Virus record (IMG/VR): IMGVR_UViG_3300030390_001071
Coordinates: 1-27,460 of that record
Source of the DNA: a virus
DNA: 27,460 nucleotides
Strand: one strand, 5' to 3'
Positions 16,689-25,665 of the stretch are shown here, piece after piece. The notes below the pieces were generated by a model. The model made no database searches. It worked only from the letters and a program-made list of their open reading frames with translations, and had not been told where the DNA came from. A program made the translations under genes and the position numbers. The stretch's first letter is position 1, and the number at the start of each line of letters is the position of its first letter.

Positions 16689-18188
16689 TTAATAATACTC
16701 TCTTGCTCTACGAGGATACCAATTCTCTGGGATCTCTTCGCCTTTTAAATCGATAAACCCGCCTTGCCTAAAACGCATCACTGCCATTGTCATACTATCA
16801 CAATAGTCATCATGATCGCCATTCGGAAAAGATGCAACTTCTTCAATAACATCTTCTGCAAATTTCTCTCCTTCAGGATACCATACTTTTCCAGATTCGA
16901 AAATAGGTGACACGATATGCATTCTCATAGTTTTATCGACACCCCCACCACCTTTTCGTCTGCCAGGACTAAACGTAGTAACGGGAAGATTTAATAATCT
17001 TAGTTCATCAGCAAGCGGTTGACCAGATGCCTTCGCCTCAATTAGCATCAAATCTGGTTCCCAATATTCATTTTCTTCTATAGCTATTTCTTTTAACTCT
17101 GGAAAATTCCAACGCCCCTTTTTCGCATCCAACATTATTAAATGTTGCTCACCATCTTCCTTTGGCTCAAACACTCCCCAAGTTGTAATAGCACTATAGT
17201 CAGCAGTCTCTTTTTTAGAATATGCCGTATCATAACTCTGCACTATATAATCTAATCTGGGTGTATCTTCTCTCTCCCACGCTTGCCACCAATCTCTCTT
17301 GATCATGGCAACGGCTTCCGAGGTTGGGTTCTGCTGCCATTGAGCGTTCCACTTGACCGGGGACAGTGAAGCCTTGACCTTTAATAGTTCATCAACTTCC
17401 CAGAACTCGGGCCATAGTGCTTTATCATTTGGAAGTATCGCTGGAAATTCTATAACCTCCCATTGATCGGACATACTGTCCATTGCCATATTCTGTACTA
17501 ATCGCCCCGTGAGGTCTTTCTTAGACCATCTTGTCTGCACAATAATGATGGTACCCCCCGGTTGCAATCTCTGCCTCGGTCCAGATGTGTACCACTCATA
17601 TGTATTATCATAAGCAACCGTGGACAATGCATCTTGTTCCGAGTGCGGATCATCAATGATCAACAAATCGGCACCACGACCTGTCATTGCAGCACCCACC
17701 CCTGCAGCGAAATATTCCCCACCAGCACTAGTCTCCCAACGACCTGCAGCTTGGCTATCCGGTTTCAAGTCCGTCTTGGGAAAGATCTCAGCATATATGG
17801 GATCGGCAATGAGATCACGAACCTTCCTACCGAATCTTACAGCAAGTTCCGTGTTCATGGTAGCCTGTATGATTTTTAATTTAGGATTACGACCCAAGAA
17901 CCACGAAGGCATTAAATATGAGGCTAATTCTGATTTCGAGTGTCTAGGAGGCATGTTGATGATCAAACGCTTCAAGTTACCCGATGCAATGTCCTCGAGC
18001 TTTTCGGAAATGACACGATGATGTCTACCCTCTATAAAACCGTCATATACATGTTTAGCATAGGATAGAAATTTAGTTTGAGCTTCTTCACGAGTTTCAA
18101 GTCGCTTGTGCTGTTGTTCCAGTAACAGAACTTCTTGTAACACTTCTTTAGGTAAGGCTTCATAATTCATACCCGAACAATAATACAT
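16689..18188 (-). CDS. terL: Terminase large subunit
   Basis: 499 residues. The ATPase half has a Walker A-like MPPRHSKSE (residues 79-87), Walker B LLIIDDP (175-181) and a coupling motif TRW (219-221). The C-terminal nuclease has metal-binding acids at SYDTAY (D320), LIEAKASG (E384) and GDHDDYCDSM (D459-D461). It packages DNA into the prohead through the portal and cuts it. It is the first gene of the leftward module. Neither ATG1 (18188) nor the in-frame ATG7 (18170) has a clear Shine-Dalgarno, so the start is uncertain by six residues. The small subunit is not adjacent; it lies at 26272-26769. Confidence 0.96.
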   Translation of the reverse strand: MYYCSGMNYEALPKEVLQEVLLLEQQHKRLETREEAQTKFLSYAKHVYDGFIEGRHHRVISEKLEDIASGNLKRLIINMPPRHSKSELASYLMPSWFLGRNPKLKIIQATMNTELAVRFGRKVRDLIADPIYAEIFPKTDLKPDSQAAGRWETSAGGEYFAAGVGAAMTGRGADLLIIDDPHSEQDALSTVAYDNTYEWYTSGPRQRLQPGGTIIIVQTRWSKKDLTGRLVQNMAMDSMSDQWEVIEFPAILPNDKALWPEFWEVDELLKVKASLSPVKWNAQWQQNPTSEAVAMIKRDWWQAWEREDTPRLDYIVQSYDTAYSKKETADYSAITTWGVFEPKEDGEQHLIMLDAKKGRWNFPELKEIAIEENEYWEPDLMLIEAKASGQPLADELRLLNLPVTTFSPGRRKGGGGVDKTMRMHIVSPIFESGKVWYPEGEKFAEDVIEEVASFPNGDHDDYCDSMTMAVMRFRQGGFIDLKGEEIPENWYPRRAREYY

Positions 18189-18250
18189 TCGAATGAAATT
18201 ATCAATCTTTGTAATATAGATGTGTAAGTAACCCTTATGCCCCCGTATTT

Positions 18251-18264
18251 AGGGGGTACCCCCT
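18251..18264. repeat. 14-bp perfect palindrome AGGGGGTACCCCCT
   Basis: Perfect inverted repeat 62 bases past the terL start codon side. The G5 arm can also pair with the C5 run at 18240-18244 as an alternative hairpin. It stands out in very AT-rich DNA. Confidence 0.75.
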
Positions 18265-18309
18265 CTTAGTAATCTTAAGTCAGTTACCTTTTGCTATCAG
18301 TTACCCCCG

Positions 18310-18401
18310 TTGCTTAAAAGGACTAGCTTCGCAAGCTACACTAGGTCTCGTTCCTCGCCCAAGTTTCACTATCGAAGCTAGTCCTTTCGGCAAATTTTTT
18401 T
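18310..18401 (+). ncRNA. Long hairpin with T7 tail; possible small RNA or terminator
   Basis: A 15-base perfect stem (AAAGGACTAGCTTCG at 18317-18331 with its complement at 18373-18387) is extended by TTGC (18310-18313) with GCAA (18390-18393). The 41-base loop region contains a small AGCTT/AAGCT hairpin. A T7 run follows at 18395-18401, as at the 3' end of a terminated transcript. No rightward gene lies upstream, so this may be a small RNA or a barrier to transcription. Its flanks resemble the hairpin at 20471-20515 (TCCTTT, GGCAA, T run, then TCGCA). Confidence 0.5.
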
Positions 18402-18409
18402 GGGTCGCA

Positions 18410-18458
18410 TGTGACATATATGTCACACTTTGTTGCAAAAATGTCACAGACTGTGACA
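18410..18458. promoter_or_regulatory. Two TGTNACA palindromes (operator-like)
   Basis: TGTGACATATATGTCACA (18410-18427) is a perfect 18-bp palindrome. TGTCACAG and CTGTGACA (18442-18449 and 18451-18458) flank a single A. The second overlaps one copy of the 17-base box TTGCAAAAATGTCACAG (18433-18449), also found twice at 19741-19778. The half-sites resemble CRP-type TGTGA/TCACA, but the 8-base spacing of the first palindrome is not the CRP one. Confidence 0.65.
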
Positions 18459-18474
18459 TAAATACCAGGCCTCG

Positions 18475-18532
18475 GATAGTTAACATGTTAATAAGAAAGT
18501 TGGTAGATAGTTAACATGTTAATAAGAAAGTT
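18475..18532. promoter_or_regulatory. Two tandem operators with TTAACATGTTAA core
   Basis: A 27-base unit is repeated exactly at 18475-18501 and 18506-18532, a spacing of 31 bases (about three helical turns). Each unit contains the perfect palindrome TTAACATGTTAA followed by TAAGAAAGTT. The second copy ends two bases before the promoter -35, so a dimeric regulator bound here would act directly on early transcription. Confidence 0.75.
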
Positions 18533-18533
18533 C

Positions 18534-18563
18534 TTTACATCCCATATCATCCCATGGTATAAC
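18534..18563 (+). promoter_or_regulatory. Early rightward sigma70-like promoter
   Basis: TTTACA (18534-18539), an 18-base spacer, then TATAAC (18558-18563). The first early gene starts 47 bases further on with a strong AAGGAGG site. It abuts the tandem operators. Confidence 0.7.
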
Positions 18564-18609
18564 ATATATAGGGAATAATCCCTTTAACGTACAAACCAAG
18601 GAGGACAAT

Positions 18610-18882
18610 ATGTCTGATGTACAATATGCCATCGAAGAGTTGGTAAACGAGCAAGTGGATAATCGTATCGAAGATGCGATAAATGAGAACTCCGAGATCT
18701 CATCTATCAGAGATGAAATCTCAGAACTCCAAGACAAACTTAATGGGGACTTTGCAGACGAAGTTACTAAGGCAGTCTTGTTAAACATCACAACTAAGTT
18801 GGTCGCTTGTAATGATGAGCAATACATCATGGTCAAGAAGGACTATCTTGCACAACTTCAATCAAAAAAGGAGGAGGGATAG
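18610..18882 (+). CDS. Small acidic coiled-coil protein (first early gene)
   Basis: 90 residues. Strong Shine-Dalgarno AAGGAGG before ATG. The N-terminal two thirds is acidic and helical (VNEQVDNRIEDAINENSEIS, RDEISELQDKLNG), followed by VLLNITTKLVACNDEQYIMV. It is transcribed from the operator-controlled promoter and closed by a terminator five bases after its stop, so it forms a near-monocistronic early transcript. No helix-turn-helix is evident. Function unknown. Confidence 0.75.
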   Translation: MSDVQYAIEELVNEQVDNRIEDAINENSEISSIRDEISELQDKLNGDFADEVTKAVLLNITTKLVACNDEQYIMVKKDYLAQLQSKKEEG

Positions 18883-18886
18883 AATT

Positions 18887-18907
18887 GGGAGCTTCGGCTC
18901 CCTTTTT
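18887..18907 (+). terminator. Rho-independent terminator, TTCG loop
   Basis: GGGAGC stem, TTCG tetraloop, GCTCCC, then T5. It directly follows the first early gene. Confidence 0.9.
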
Positions 18908-18920
18908 CCTTTATAAAAAT

Positions 18921-19082
18921 ATGGATAAAACTAGAACATTATTAGACCTTTGTTACAAGCGAGGAACATTAATCGGTCTTAAACAAGCGATGGTAGAAGT
19001 TAATAAACAAGAACTCAATCTTCTAAAAGAGATCAGAAAGATCGAAGAAGAAATAAGAGAGTTAGAAAAGGAGGATGCATAA
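18921..19082 (+). CDS. 53-residue coiled-coil protein
   Basis: Starts at ATG 18921: MDKTRTLLDLCYKRGTLIGL, then a long charged helix rich in Glu and Lys (KEIRKIEEEIRELEKEDA). A TTG start at 18885 would be longer but would place the terminator hairpin inside the coding region, so I prefer the ATG even though its Shine-Dalgarno is poor. It precedes the zinc-ribbon gene with no gap. Function unknown. Confidence 0.6.
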   Translation: MDKTRTLLDLCYKRGTLIGLKQAMVEVNKQELNLLKEIRKIEEEIRELEKEDA

Positions 19083-19373
19083 ATGAAGTGTTCCATTTGT
19101 ACTAACGATATAGATGTACAATCGAATGGATGGGAGGAAGGGCATAATGCTCTTCCTCTTTCCAATGGAAGATGTTGTACTATTTGTAATGATACCGAAG
19201 TTGTTCCGATGAGAATGGCTTTTATTTCTTTGGGTCGCAGTATTCCAAAAGAAGGCTTGAAAGAAATAATAGACACGCAAAGAAAAGCGAGATCCATTGC
19301 CAACGTATCATTAAATAATATAACTAGAGAAGTTAATCTTATAAAGAAAAAAGGAAAGTTGAGGAGGAAATAA
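19083..19373 (+). CDS. Zinc-ribbon small protein
   Basis: 96 residues. MKCSICTNDIDVQSNGWEEG begins with a CxxC pair (C3, C6); a second CCTICND follows at about residues 31-37, so four cysteines could bind zinc. The rest (EVVPMRMAFISLGRSIPKEG, then a basic tail KKKGKLRRK) is helical and positively charged. It resembles a small protein I recall from marine phages. An auxiliary nucleic-acid-binding or host-takeover role is possible. AGGAG precedes the start; the stop overlaps the next ATG (TAATG). Confidence 0.75.
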   Translation: MKCSICTNDIDVQSNGWEEGHNALPLSNGRCCTICNDTEVVPMRMAFISLGRSIPKEGLKEIIDTQRKARSIANVSLNNITREVNLIKKKGKLRRK

Positions 19374-19603
19374 TGAATAGACAATTACAAGAGCATAACG
19401 AATTTAATTATTCAACTGATGCCGAATGGGATAAAGAAGATGCAAGAATAAGAGGAGAGCAGAACCAACAATCTCCTTGGATATGTAGTGATCGAGATGT
19501 GTGGTATGTAAATCCTTATTGGGGAAAGTACGATGCTAATGGTCAACCATTGCAAGAAGATGGCACTCGTTGTCGTCATCCAGAAGATTATGATGAAGAA
19601 TAA
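19373..19603 (+). CDS. Acidic, Trp/Tyr-containing small hypothetical protein
   Basis: 76 residues: MNRQLQEHNEFNYSTDAEWD, then SPWICSDRDVWYVNPYWGKY and an acidic end. It is rich in aromatics and Asp/Glu and has two cysteines, suggesting a small surface-binding inhibitor or adaptor rather than an enzyme. Coupled to the zinc-ribbon gene by TAATG and followed by a terminator after 22 bases. No family recognised. Confidence 0.65.
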   Translation: MNRQLQEHNEFNYSTDAEWDKEDARIRGEQNQQSPWICSDRDVWYVNPYWGKYDANGQPLQEDGTRCRHPEDYDEE

Positions 19604-19625
19604 TAAAGTTTCCTTGGTGGAAAGG

Positions 19626-19651
19626 GGAGGGCTTCGGCTCTCCTTTTTTTT
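19626..19651 (+). terminator. Rho-independent terminator, TTCG loop
   Basis: GGAGGGC stem, TTCG loop, GCTCTCC (one G-T pair), then T8. It ends the three-gene unit 18921-19603. Confidence 0.88.
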
Positions 19652-19688
19652 GTTGGGGTCGATGCTCAGAGTTGTGGTTCGCAGTTTT

Positions 19689-19724
19689 AAAAAAACGAAA
19701 CTCGCAAACTCGTTTCGTTTTTTT
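19689..19724. repeat. Hairpin 1 with TCGCAAACTC loop
   Basis: 13-base perfect arms (AAAAAAACGAAAC at 19689-19701 and complement at 19712-19724) around the loop TCGCAAACTC. Symmetric A and T tracts could make it a bidirectional terminator. The same loop recurs in hairpins at 20478 and 20542. Confidence 0.85.
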
Positions 19725-19740
19725 GTCAAGTTTTTTTAAG

Positions 19741-19778
19741 TTGCAAAAATGTCACAGAGTGTTGCAAAAATGTCACAG
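19741..19778 (+). promoter_or_regulatory. Two copies of 17-base box TTGCAAAAATGTCACAG
   Basis: Copies at 19741-19757 and 19762-19778, a 21-base period (two helical turns). A third copy is at 18433-18449. Copies at 18433 and 19741 end about 82-84 bases before the -35 of their downstream promoter, suggesting a shared regulator. Confidence 0.7.
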
Positions 19779-19839
19779 TCAAACAATAAGATTTGATATG
19801 CAGTATCACAAAAAATGATGCACAAAACCAGGTTTTTGC

Positions 19840-19868
19840 TTGACTGTTTCATGATCCCAGATTATCCT
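19840..19868 (+). promoter_or_regulatory. Rightward promoter candidate
   Basis: TTGACT (19840-19845), 17-base spacer, TATCCT (19863-19868), followed by the AT-rich TATATAACAATTAA. The gene at 19903 follows with AAAGGG as ribosome site. Confidence 0.55.
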
Positions 19869-19902
19869 ATATATAACAATTAACCAATTAAAGGGAAATA
19901 AA

Positions 19903-20067
19903 ATGACCAAATCAGAACTAGAAATAATTTACGAAACAGTATCAACATTAAATAAAATGTGTAGTTCTAATCATGATTTTAGTATGACGCTTGTTGACGA
20001 AATGAAAACATTAGTCGGAATTATTAAAACTATGGATATAAGATTACAAAAAATGGAGGCAAAATAA
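19903..20067 (+). CDS. 54-residue helical protein
   Basis: ATG at 19903 preceded by AAAGGG. MTKSELEIIYETVSTLNKMC, a middle with HDFSMTLVDEMKTLVG and the end MDIRLQKMEAK read as two or three amphipathic helices. The stop is followed at once by the ATG of the next gene, whose GGAGG site lies inside this gene. Function unknown. Confidence 0.7.
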   Translation: MTKSELEIIYETVSTLNKMCSSNHDFSMTLVDEMKTLVGIIKTMDIRLQKMEAK

Positions 20068-20415
20068 ATGGGATTGAAAAAACAATTAACTCAAACACAT
20101 TTCGAGGCTTACGATTATTTTAAAACTAATTTTTATTATCATAAGAATGATACGATTTACTGTATTATTAAGCATGTTTCAAAAAGTGGAATGACAAGAC
20201 ACATTTCATTTTTTTATATTCGAGACAATGAGCCTAGATTTATAACTTCTAGAATTTCCGATTTTCTAGAATATAAAATGAATAAATATCATGATGCGAT
20301 TGTAGTTGGTGGGTGTGGAATGGATATGGCTTTTTCGGTTGTCAACCATTTACAACAACAACTACAACACTATCACTATAGAAAAGATTTTAAATTAAAT
20401 CATCGTATCATTTAA
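20068..20415 (+). CDS. Conserved hypothetical phage protein (SKSGMTRHISFF type)
   Basis: 115 residues. The core IIKHVSKSGMTRHISFFYIR and a later GGCGMDMAFSVVNHLQQQLQ match a small conserved protein I recall in many phages and plasmids, where the SGM-R-IS and GCGMDM stretches are the most conserved. It has no assigned function. The pattern suggests an alpha/beta fold with a conserved GCGMD loop. It ends the 19903-20415 unit before a strong terminator. Confidence 0.75.
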   Translation: MGLKKQLTQTHFEAYDYFKTNFYYHKNDTIYCIIKHVSKSGMTRHISFFYIRDNEPRFITSRISDFLEYKMNKYHDAIVVGGCGMDMAFSVVNHLQQQLQHYHYRKDFKLNHRII

Positions 20416-20420
20416 CCGAA

Positions 20421-20445
20421 GGGGGGCGAAAGCCTCCCTTTTTTT
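20421..20445 (+). terminator. Rho-independent terminator, GAAA loop
   Basis: GGGGGGC stem, GAAA tetraloop, GCCTCCC (one G-T pair), then T7. It follows the 20068-20415 gene by five bases. Confidence 0.9.
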
Positions 20446-20470
20446 CCGTTTTTTTTTATCCCCCAAATAT

Positions 20471-20515
20471 TAAAAGCACAAAGTTCGCAAACTCACTTTG
20501 TCCTTTGGCAATTTT
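20471..20515. repeat. Hairpin 2 with TCGCAAACTC loop
   Basis: Arms ACAAAGT (20478-20484) and ACTTTGT (20495-20501), extended past a C-C mismatch by AAAG and CTTT, around the same 10-base loop as hairpins 1 and 3. It is followed by GGCAATTTTTT, matching the flank of the long hairpin at 18310-18401. Confidence 0.8.
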
Positions 20516-20517
20516 TT

Positions 20518-20952
20518 CTAGTTCGCAGAAACCTTCGGTGTAAAACCATGAAACTCGCAAACTCGTTTCATGGTTTTTTCATTCGCAGATTGCAAACATT
20601 GACCCATTGATCCATGAAACACGAAACATGGTTGTTCTTGTCCTAAAACAATGGAATTTGCTACAGAAAATCCGTCAAATAAAAATGCATTAGAGGTGCG
20701 AGGGTCTTTAACCAAGATAAAAGAAATATAATTATTCTTGTTTATCCTTAAATGTGTTGATACTTGGGACTTTTCAAGTTTTATCCTATTTCCTTTTATA
20801 GGTGCTTTTAATTCAATAAATAAAGGTAATGTTTCAGTAATAATGATTAGGTCTGGAAAACCAGAATTGTATTTATTCTCTATTTTTTGGATGAAATTTG
20901 ATTTATTTAATGATGCTTTTATTTGTTTAAAAAAGTTCTTTTCGCTTGACAT
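20518..20952 (-). CDS. VRR-NUC-type PD-(D/E)XK nuclease
   Basis: 144 residues on the minus strand inside the rightward module. SGFPDLIIITETLPLFIELK carries the PD and E-x-K catalytic elements, followed by KSQVSTHLRINKN with the conserved Gln of the VRR-NUC fold. Such nucleases act on branched or replication intermediates and are common in phages. The last 20 or so residues are encoded through hairpin 3, so the native C-terminus may have been replaced. The start codon overlaps the -35 of a divergent promoter (20946-20974). Confidence 0.8.
   Translation of the reverse strand: MSSEKNFFKQIKASLNKSNFIQKIENKYNSGFPDLIIITETLPLFIELKAPIKGNRIKLEKSQVSTHLRINKNNYISFILVKDPRTSNAFLFDGFSVANSIVLGQEQPCFVFHGSMGQCLQSANEKTMKRVCEFHGFTPKVSAN
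20542..20577. repeat. Hairpin 3 with TCGCAAACTC loop, inside nuclease 3' end
   Basis: Perfect 13-base arms AAAACCATGAAAC (20542-20554) and GTTTCATGGTTTT (20565-20577) around TCGCAAACTC. TTCGCAG lies on both sides (20522 and 20582). It encodes residues TMKRVCEFHGF of the nuclease. Confidence 0.85.
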
Positions 20953-20974
20953 GATTATTATATTATCCCATAAT
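20946..20974 (+). promoter_or_regulatory. Strong rightward sigma70-like promoter
   Basis: TTGACA (20946-20951), 17-base spacer, CATAAT (20969-20974). It drives the long gene cluster from 21006 onward. Confidence 0.75.
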
Positions 20975-21005
20975 TACTTATATTATTTTATTCGGAGGAT
21001 TTAGA

Positions 21006-24393: not shown

Positions 24394-24542
24394 TTAACTT
24401 TTGTGAAGAATGGATATGTGATGGTTGTGGTAATATTTTTGATAAAACAGAATTAGTGGATTCAATACAACTACCATATTATGCATGTCAAGATTGTGAA
24501 GCAGATTTAAAAAAAGATTTGGAGGATTGTGTAAATGATTAA
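24390..24542 (+). CDS. 50-residue zinc-ribbon protein, paralogue of 22906-23160
   Basis: ATG 24390 after GGAGGG. MINFCEEWICDGCGNIFDKT then YYACQDCEADLKKDLED: CxxC (C10, C13) and CxxC (C33, C36), with an extra Cys at 5. It lacks the C-terminal extension of the 22906 paralogue. Its end contains the GGAGG site of the methyltransferase gene and overlaps it by eight bases, so it is directly coupled to the methyltransferase. Confidence 0.7.
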   Translation: MINFCEEWICDGCGNIFDKTELVDSIQLPYYACQDCEADLKKDLEDCVND

Positions 24543-25665
24543 AGAAGTTTCTTTATGTAGTGGGATCGGAGGTTTCTCTCTCGGTTTCGAATGGGCAAAA
24601 TTCGCAGAGCCTATAATGTTCTGCGACTTTGATGAATGGTGTAGAAAAGTTTTAAAAAAGAATTGGAAAGATGTTCCAACTTATAACGATGTTAAGGAGA
24701 TCGCAAATGACCCAAGAAGATTTATTTCAAGCAAAATCAACAAAGGAGAAAAGTGGGTACTCACAAGTGGATACCCATGCCAACCCTTCTCGGTCTCGGG
24801 AAATCGCAGAGGAGAAGAAGACCCTCGGCACATCTTTCCGTACATCCATAGAATTGTTGAACAAACTAGACCCACTTATTGTGTTTTCGAAAACGTTTAT
24901 GGGCATGTCTCAATGGGACTTGACGAGGTACTCTTTGAAATGGAAAGGATCAACTACCATACGAGGCAATTTGTTGTTTCGGCTTCAAGTGTCGGAGCGA
25001 GACACAAAAGAGACAGACTCTGGATCATCTGTAAAAATGTGGGCGACACCGAATACAATGGATGCTCTACCTCCGAGATCGGAAGAGGGGACGAAGAAGT
25101 TGCAAGAGGGTCACAGAAAAGGTCGGAAGAGACCGAGCAATCTAAGGGAGCAAGTGGACAAGAAGACAATGGCTCTTTACGAAACGAATTATCCAACTCC
25201 AACAACGAAGGGATTCGGTCATGCCTCGGAGGGAATGACATTGATCTTCAGAAAGAAAGTGGAGAGAGGAGAGATGACGGAACAAGAGGCTCAAGCAATG
25301 ATGAACGGAGTAACCTTGAGACCACCTCGGATGAAAGAGTGGAAATATCCGACACCGAATGCAGGTTTAGTGAAACACAGTTACAACGGCAATCACGAAT
25401 ACTACAAGAAGAGATTGAGGGACGGCAGACAAATAGACTTGGCTCACAAGATTTTTCAAGAGGAGGGAGACGGCAGACTCAATGCGAATTGGACGGAGTG
25501 GCTAATGGGTTATCCTATTGGATGGACGAACCTCGAGGAGTCCCAAGAGTTACAGTCGAACAAAAAAACAGACCTCAAAGATTGAGGATGTTGGGGAATG
25601 CAATAGTTCCCCAGATAGCAATGCAAATAGGTTTAGCTTTAAAGGAGGATATGAAAAATGGATAA
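24535..25665 (+). CDS. dcm: DNA (cytosine-5) methyltransferase
   Basis: 376 residues, complete. Motif I LCSGIGGFSLGFEWA (7-21) binds S-adenosylmethionine; PCQPFS (81-86) carries the catalytic Cys82; ENV (119-121) and GARHKRDRLW (154-163) are motifs VI and VIII; RLRMLGNAIVPQIA near 349-362 gives motifs IX/X. Residues about 170-320 are Ser/Glu/Arg/Asn-rich and poor in hydrophobics, unlike a normal target-recognition domain. Residues about 58-350 overlap the +1-frame gene 24707-25585. A sample line here (25081-25140) has 32 of 60 G+C against 16 of 60 at 24301-24360. No restriction enzyme gene is seen, so it probably protects phage DNA from host restriction. Confidence 0.93.
   Translation: MIKEVSLCSGIGGFSLGFEWAKFAEPIMFCDFDEWCRKVLKKNWKDVPTYNDVKEIANDPRRFISSKINKGEKWVLTSGYPCQPFSVSGNRRGEEDPRHIFPYIHRIVEQTRPTYCVFENVYGHVSMGLDEVLFEMERINYHTRQFVVSASSVGARHKRDRLWIICKNVGDTEYNGCSTSEIGRGDEEVARGSQKRSEETEQSKGASGQEDNGSLRNELSNSNNEGIRSCLGGNDIDLQKESGERRDDGTRGSSNDERSNLETTSDERVEISDTECRFSETQLQRQSRILQEEIEGRQTNRLGSQDFSRGGRRQTQCELDGVANGLSYWMDEPRGVPRVTVEQKNRPQRLRMLGNAIVPQIAMQIGLALKEDMKNG
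24694..24699 (+). promoter_or_regulatory. Internal ribosome binding site for the overprinted gene
   Basis: AAGGAG lies 7 bases before the ATG at 24707, inside the methyltransferase gene. It selects 24707 rather than the ATG at 24671 as the start of the overlapping gene. Confidence 0.75.
24707..25585 (+). CDS. Overprinted gene in +1 frame of the methyltransferase
   Basis: 292 codons wholly inside dcm. The start MTQEDLFQAKSTKEKSGYSQ follows AAGGAG. Residues 24-28 (HANPS) are read from the bases that encode PCQPFS. There are repeated aromatic-x-TP motifs: MWATPNTMDALPPRS (111-125), NYPTPTTKGFGH (161-172) and KYPTPNAG (213-220). The C-terminal GRLNANWTEWLMGYPIGWTN (256-275) is read from bases that encode LDGVANGLSYWMDE of the methyltransferase. 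From memory, similar proteins occur in other phages, often named methyltransferase-related. The function is unknown; a partner or specificity factor is inference. Confidence 0.75.
   Translation: MTQEDLFQAKSTKEKSGYSQVDTHANPSRSREIAEEKKTLGTSFRTSIELLNKLDPLIVFSKTFMGMSQWDLTRYSLKWKGSTTIRGNLLFRLQVSERDTKETDSGSSVKMWATPNTMDALPPRSEEGTKKLQEGHRKGRKRPSNLREQVDKKTMALYETNYPTPTTKGFGHASEGMTLIFRKKVERGEMTEQEAQAMMNGVTLRPPRMKEWKYPTPNAGLVKHSYNGNHEYYKKRLRDGRQIDLAHKIFQEEGDGRLNANWTEWLMGYPIGWTNLEESQELQSNKKTDLKD

Follow-up and report, generated by a model that had tools for sequence, protein, structure and literature searches.

Hairpins between terL and a small nuclease gene

The window analysed here is one IMG/VR virus record of 27,460 bases (IMGVR_UViG_3300030390_001071, positions 1 to 27,460), in which four hairpins are placed between the gene for the terminase large subunit (terL) and a small nuclease gene. 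The main genes to the left of about 18.2 kb all run leftward. The window terL is about 58% identical to the terL of Pelagibacter phage HTVC027P and of Phage DSL-LC04, and the portal is of the SU10 type; these features make it probable that the window is one fragment of a genome of podovirus-like type. The hairpins, which we call elements, belong to a family that occupies matching positions in dozens of related contigs of uncultured marine phages. We put at about even the chance that this is a lineage-specific family of DNA hairpin sites whose TCGCAA loop is read by a putative protein and which double as recombination joints between small gene modules. Behind this reading stand the family itself, its positions, the covariation of its stems, the near-absence of G-U pairs, a fixed orientation, and the joints.

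The elements, the genes that border them and the short words beside them are listed here (ORF, open reading frame):

16689..18188 (-): terL, left border of the element region
18317..18387 (+): first element, a long hairpin with arms of about 16 bp and with TTCGCAA contained in a GCTT-CGC-AAGC mini-hairpin; it occupies the gap from which terL (-) and the first + operon diverge
18405..18409 (+): TCGCA word beyond the first element and the T-run after it
19678..19684 (+): TTCGCAG word ahead of the second element
19689..19724 (+): second element, which separates two + operons; stem of 13 bp, loop TCGCAAACTC
19740..19746 (+): GTTGCAA word beyond the second element and the T-run after it
20473..20506 (+): third element, in which a 7-bp stem (perfect core 20478-20501) is extended by four pairs beyond a single C-C mismatch; loop TCGCAAACTC
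20518..20952 (-): PD-(D/E)XK / VRR-NUC / Hjc-like nuclease (profile matches weak but concordant), which bounds the element region on the right
20522..20528 (+): TTCGCAG word between the third and fourth elements
20542..20577 (+): fourth element, with loop TCGCAAACTC and a stem of 13 bp, contained in the stretch that codes for the C-terminal end of the nuclease
20582..20588 (+): TTCGCAG word beyond the fourth element, at the same time part of the nuclease coding sequence (- strand)

The original prediction, made from the bare letters of the window, had described three hairpins (19689-19724, 20478-20501, and 20542-20577) with a common 10-base loop, TCGCAAACTC, and different, perfectly self-complementary stems. 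This holds, with stems of 13, 7, and 13 bp, and the loop occurs exactly three times in the window, each time within one of these hairpins. The hairpin at 20478-20501 is the weakest of them, with the C-C mismatch just beyond its 7 bp. Also borne out are the kinship of the long hairpin (18317-18387 within a predicted 18310-18401) with the second, as the two have TTAAAAG, TTCGCAA and the trailing series TCCTTT/GGCAA/T-run/TCGCA in common, and the recurrence of TTCGCAG, which is found three times on the + strand of 18189-21005 and not once on the - strand. The calculated energies of the window's four hairpins as single strands are -11, -5, -11.3, and -15.9 kcal/mol. Read on the - strand, the fourth element encodes MKRVCEFHGF. 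Across the family, a YGCAR word lies within 45 nt after 79 of 125 elements. As a separate observation, TTGCAAAAATGTCACAG-like blocks that resemble binding sites are repeated after the first and second elements (18415-18449 and 19744-19778).

The family in related phages

The carriers found are metagenome contigs, mostly fragments, with rough gene calls. L-numbers denote related loci, several of which may derive from one contig; duplicates were removed by sequence. Exact copies of TCGCAAACTC are present in the window and in its close relatives L001, L002, L006, L011, and L013, and the second element has near-identical copies in L001 and L013. The orthologous site of the third element in L001 keeps the same stem intact around a long loop, and the position of the first element is kept in L211, L212, L219, and L221, with both arms altered. 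A search with an exact 16-nt piece of loop and stem returned 13 contigs, eight of them chance matches without an element. Among 90 loci (1.1 Mb), TCGCAAACTC is the sole loop of at least 6 nt that recurs with five different 7-bp stems; the next loop recurs with three. When 164 loci are ranked by the 5-mer that starts a hairpin loop, TCGCA comes first, with 24 distinct hairpins against 1.2 expected, followed by TAAAA, with 13 against 5.5.

Throughout the family, the loop is one-sided and starts with TCGCAA or TCGCAG, and the stem is a near-perfect palindrome of about 8 to 22 bp. Two loop classes can be told apart: a short class, TCGCAA..CTC, which ends in CTC, and a long class, TCGCAA.GCGACC.ACTTCGTT. 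We chose a stem-blind pattern search with the loop only as a cleaner test than a covariance model. In IMG/VR, the long loop alone found 40 stretches, giving 42 distinct viral sites with enough flank, and 39 of these 42 have an 8/8 Watson-Crick stem, with 17 different arms among them; the other three comprise a stem that lies further out around a longer loop, a chimera, and a single A-C pair. The same search of an 84,980-genome collection gave six stretches, five of them without a stem. Loop lengths of the 54 distinct elements in 78 terL-nuclease regions fall into three groups, 10-12, 20-22, and 30-32 nt, and lengths of 13-19 or 23-29 nt do not occur among them, a spacing that could have arisen through 10-nt duplications.

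Two further observations concern hairpins outside this set. A contig of a Prevotellaceae metagenome-assembled genome (MAG), which lies outside the phage lineage (L319; L324:8092-8111), has the exact 20-nt long loop within a palindrome of about 34 pairs with three mismatches, as read by eye; the same contig bears ParA-like and resolvase-like ORFs. In the more distant L070, L073, L086, L090, and L093, other perfect hairpins stand upstream of terL, for example with arms AAAAAACCTGC, and are then followed by CGGGCGCAAG or CGCGCGCAA. These may be an analogous family with another signature.

The window had no megablast match among isolate phages, and a distant nucleotide search of isolate phages with a relative's region matched only the terL stretch of HTVC027P; thus, no cultured carrier is known here. 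Searches of open-licence PMC papers for phage intergenic hairpins with constant loops turned up no account of the family, and the pelagiphage papers PMC9599517 and PMC12753301 contain no mention of hairpin, terminator, promoter or intergenic.

Covariation and stem turnover

All 12 pairs of the long class (46 distinct elements) vary on both sides, and the alignments contain no constant stem base. The class has 136 double-change cells compared with 37.8 in shuffles, and its covariation score is 0.652; shuffling lowers this to 0.212, and sliding the partner lowers it to no more than 0.165. In the short class (17 elements), the covariation score is 0.842 against 0.256 shuffled; the numbers of pairs changed on both sides and of further pair types do not exceed shuffles. 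The covariation within the family is decisive. It strongly supports the predicted selection for structure, or active maintenance of it, and both further examples and covariation beyond the window's own copies were found in relatives.

One-sided changes in the stems are almost absent. Orthologous pairs with flanks at least 80% alike have identical stems in 49 of 67 comparisons, and the non-identical ones hold 27 both-arm and 17 single-arm differences, the latter confined to the outer pairs (10 and 11), comparisons that involve the L311 chimera described below, and the window/L001 pair. L288 and L289 have identical loops, and their flanks match to at least 92%; between them, four stem pairs differ on both arms. 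This difference may reflect either replacement of the whole stem or its rewriting in one step.

DNA hairpin or RNA hairpin

The prediction had offered an RNA role (terminator, stability or protein-binding element) as one reading of this structure. An RNA-maintained helix passes through G-U pairs; a DNA hairpin, a corrected palindrome or a hairpin used as RNA on both strands does not. In the long class as found by the stem-blind search (46 elements, with one of 47 loop matches omitted for a stem further out), there are 365 Watson-Crick pairs, one G-U, and two other pairs, so that G-U makes up 1/366. When arm pairs are counted once each with none omitted, 19 of 22 are wholly Watson-Crick, and the exceptions are again the longer loop, the chimera, and the A-C pair. 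The short class has 10 G-U among 232 pairs under a loose pattern, whose set contains misregistered loops, and one G-U in 183 paired cells under strict alignment. Ordinary terminators in the same contigs have 27/219 (TTCG loop) and 22/191 (GAAA loop) G-U pairs, or 11-14%, and 7 of 14 CTTCGG terminators contain G-U. Judged by this pattern of change, the hairpin matters as DNA and not as RNA, or so the counts suggest, and we infer maintenance at the DNA level.

Ordinary terminators also lie close to the elements in the window:

18887..18902 (+): ordinary terminator with a TTCG loop, outside the hairpin family
19619..19648 (+): ordinary terminator that precedes the second element
20418..20441 (+): ordinary terminator that precedes the third element

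This arrangement is general. A separate canonical terminator stands at most 140 nt upstream of 38/47 middle elements (control windows, 1) and 38/42 nuclease-side elements (control windows, 0), so that 76 of the 89 elements outside the terL-side gap are found just downstream of one; on the terL side, this is true of 1/36. With a terminator already upstream, the elements sit where little transcription is expected. T-tracts (at least 5 of 8) adjoin the stem on the sense side in 16/64 canonical elements and on the antisense side in 25/64, with none on either strand in 30/64. The elements have a median of five G-C pairs and loops of 10-50 nt. As a family, the elements have neither the G-C-rich hairpin with an immediate sense T-tract that defines an intrinsic terminator nor a terminator-like G-U content.

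In one form of the RNA reading, the elements are back-up or bidirectional intrinsic terminators, that is, insulators between units, with a loop that also binds a protein. Such a both-strand hairpin must avoid G-U because G-U on one strand is C-A on the other. The elements do lie between units, and at the nuclease border, which is convergent, they form a tandem pair; in the window itself, the copies have A-rich sequence ahead of the stem and T-rich sequence behind it, T-tracts occur on both sides of 7/64 canonical elements, and 29 of 47 middle elements are followed by a T5 within 28 nt (control, 3). Set against this are the many stems with no T-tract on either strand and the few with one in their own orientation, the terminator already in place upstream, a first element that is usually in a divergent gap with no + gene upstream of it, and weak stems with long loops that would make poor terminators. 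We consider this explanation unlikely. The RNA reading as a whole is poorly supported, given the scarce G-U, the separate upstream terminators, and the few stem T-tracts, and it is further disfavoured by an orientation that stays fixed whatever the direction of the neighbouring genes.

Orientation and genomic map

Orientation was tested on 73 canonical elements in 37 loci, with context taken from marker genes, terminators, and manual reading. The elements are oriented opposite to terL in 61/61 cases, opposite to the nuclease in 71/71, and the same way as a GP88-like gene in 17/17, which is the single orientation that characterizes attC arrays, and it holds though some neighbouring genes point in the opposite direction. 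In L046, L283, L288, L289, L305, L308, and L310, the family to which the gene at window 18610-18882 belongs appears inverted beside terL. In the general map, a leftward terL is followed by an element, a rightward unit, a second element, another rightward unit, two elements, and a leftward nuclease; the underlying gene-order table rests on rough ORF calls, with some rows lacking named genes, and serves as support only. The first element is usually in the divergent gap beside terL. One or two elements stand on the nuclease side, and the innermost often overlaps the C-terminal codons of the nuclease, whose C-terminal tail differs among relatives just as the element does.

These regularities bear on a second alternative, in which the palindromes are kept perfect by template switching in replication (quasipalindrome correction) or by snap-back copying, are tolerated in gaps without any function, and have a loop spread by recombination. 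The homogenisation of inverted repeats by template switching is an established process (PMC7202029, PMC8604942), and it would account for near-perfect arms free of wobble pairs and for abrupt double changes such as those between L288 and L289. It leaves unexplained why the same loop, in a fixed orientation, is found at matching unit borders across a wide range of relatives, and why the loop is conserved rather than the stem. We give this explanation little credence.

Recombination joints and mobility

Homology between relatives breaks at an element, as clean insertions, in 26 of 41 unique cases, where 9.7 are expected by random placement; the pairs compared are not independent, and the element set includes two matches of another hairpin type (L093). 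In L294 compared with L281 and L069, the homology blocks overlap by 54 bp, and this overlap is the element. L311:1659-1703 is a chimera in which the shared loop joins a 5' arm and a 3' arm that belong to two different element types, which reads as a snapshot of exchange inside the loop. Altogether, the chimera and the breakpoints indicate recombination at the loop, which may be either a purpose of the elements or a by-product of shared sequence.

Such joints recall an integron-like cassette array, with the elements as structure-recognised sites of a putative recombinase and the small genes as cassettes. Consistent with this are an orientation that stays constant despite changing genes and the inversion of one gene family between elements, hairpins of wobble-free DNA, and whole units of gene plus element that are gained or lost with borders at the element, as in the 54-bp overlap. 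On the other hand, no PF00589 recombinase was found in 18 partial records, the units bear their own terminators and promoter-like sites, some exchanges swap about one ORF and leave the element where it is, and ordinary homologous recombination at shared loops yields the same borders. On balance, a cassette array of this kind is improbable. An ordinary mobile or repetitive palindromic element of the REP (repetitive extragenic palindromic), MITE (miniature inverted-repeat transposable element) or RPE (Rickettsia palindromic element) type, spreading in these phages without a dedicated role, is highly improbable, since mobile copies are expected to share stems and here the loop alone is common to copies at conserved positions, for all that copy number can differ at one site, one copy lies inside the nuclease coding end as its tail, and a Prevotellaceae MAG contig has a copy of the same 20-nt loop.

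The predicted mobile palindromic repeat thus stands in part. The number of elements and the flanking modules do change at element borders between relatives; the copies persist at the same positions, and almost no spread beyond the phage lineage was seen. Likewise, for the suggestion to look for copies at equivalent positions in relatives, matching sites are occupied, with a copy number that differs at some of them (two elements in L288 and one in L299; two in L305 and one in L308).

A proposed DNA hairpin read by its loop

The most economical reading of these data is a DNA hairpin recognised by its loop. The hairpin may be used as DNA, formed by one strand where supercoiling is negative or the region has become single-stranded; a protein would read the loop, and the stem would only have to close. 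The elements flank small transcription units in the stretch from terL to the resolvase-like nuclease, with a single orientation throughout, and would act as joints where modules are gained, lost or exchanged because all copies share the loop. Candidate primary jobs are recombination, replication or priming, and control of transcription start. Going further, and more tentatively, it is possible that these are a class of phage DNA site recognised by structure and loop rather than by stem, in which a putative dedicated protein of phage or host reads the oriented TCGCAA loop as a single strand or cruciform; such sites would mark out a modular early-gene region at its borders and drive the exchange of modules there, in effect a way for phages to shuffle modules without an integron integrase.

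Several points weigh against the loop-read DNA hairpin. Since the contigs counted are related and overlap in part, the counts do not represent independent events. Several elements from the window, L001, L011, and L013 are A-rich and T-rich enough to pass as terminators, and the absence of G-U is also expected of a both-strand RNA hairpin or of functionless template-switch correction. Homology breaks fall elsewhere than at elements in 15 of the 41 cases, and L310 and L311 differ by about one replaced ORF, with the element left in place. The tyrosine recombinase domain PF00589 was found in none of the 18 records, all partial and 14-35 kb long. Finally, the neighbouring nuclease was considered as a dedicated partner of the elements and rejected because it is also present in relatives in which no element was found.

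Nuclease and other features of the window

The nuclease ORF (20518-20952, - strand) and 32 relatives have E25, D34, E47-x-K49, and Q63 in common. Its profile matches in the PDB are weak, to 4qbo "Nuclease" (2e-4) and 4tkd Hjc (9e-4); Pfam gives PDDEXK_9, VRR_NUC, and Hjc, all below threshold, and PHROG gives Holliday-junction resolvase families, with a top PHROG labelled "DNA helicase."

Two promoter-like sites lie downstream of elements:

18534..18563 (+): promoter-like by consensus only, TTTACA-18-TATAAC, beyond the first element; its spacer contains a TCCCA repeat
19840..19868 (+): promoter-like by consensus only, TTGACT-17-TATCCT, beyond the second element

A TGGGA-N5..7-TGGGA direct repeat, or its complement, occurs in promoter-like spacers as 48 pairs in the 78 terL-nuclease regions, where shuffles expect 1.0, and the pattern with a -35-like hexamer in front has 41 matches there. 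This spacer repeat is a possible operator of a phage regulator. In the window, a block containing the palindrome TTAACATGTTAA stands twice within 18478-18530, and similar palindromes lie upstream of terL in L032, L041, L067, L074, and L076.

Rfam covariance models at the gathering score leave the hairpins unmatched; the sole match in the window is a Mu-gpT-DE RNA elsewhere (1777-1830, - strand, 60.9 bits), which lies in the late, leftward-running block, between two of its genes. A C5-cytosine DNA methylase is encoded at 24535-25665 (+), overlapped in another frame by a long ORF at 24671-25585.

Comparison with known systems

Few systems are known in which a DNA hairpin has a job; the early promoters of phage N4 are among them, and attC sites and single-strand origins are others. 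Integron attC sites resemble the elements as hairpins of the single-strand type that conserve structure over sequence and border small genes in one orientation. Their R boxes, RYYYAAC / GTTRRRY, lie at the stem base, whereas the conserved part of the elements is the loop; in addition, no integrase was found in the 18 partial records, and many of the exchanges seen here fall outside the element. REP and Rickettsia palindromic elements are likewise short palindromes in gaps, with one here inside an ORF end, and they share stem sequence, whereas our stems differ from copy to copy. Intrinsic terminators are similar in placing a hairpin between units, and some elements have flanking T-runs, but in the elements the stems are weak and the loops long, mostly no T-tract adjoins the stem, and G-U pairs are nearly absent.

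The ESAS (extended start-associated sequences) of cluster K mycobacteriophages are repeated inverted repeats of unknown function between phage genes. They keep imperfect 17-bp arms around a spacer that varies from 4 to 13 bp (PMC3203893); the elements do the reverse, varying the arms and keeping the loop.

The N4 early promoters, used by the virion RNA polymerase (vRNAP), are DNA hairpins upstream of phage genes that are read by a protein after supercoil-driven extrusion (PMC4496689). Stem bases that are not conserved can be dispensed with there as long as a hairpin still forms (PMC4496689), which shows that such a mode of recognition exists. In N4, the stem is short and has conserved bases, the loop has 3 bases, and there are three copies; the elements, with loops of 10-50 nt and variable arms, are not of this type. 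No vRNAP-like protein was found in the window, itself a fragment, in which the largest ORF (1605 aa) has no Pfam match and a weak structural PHROG match. For the elements, natural variation already supplies the experiment, with dozens of stems, one loop, and hardly any wobble pairs. If confirmed, the family would be a clear case of a helix maintained at the DNA level, G-U counts set against those of neighbouring terminators would offer a simple test that separates DNA from RNA hairpins in metagenomes, and the elements would give a handle on the exchange of small genes among marine phages.

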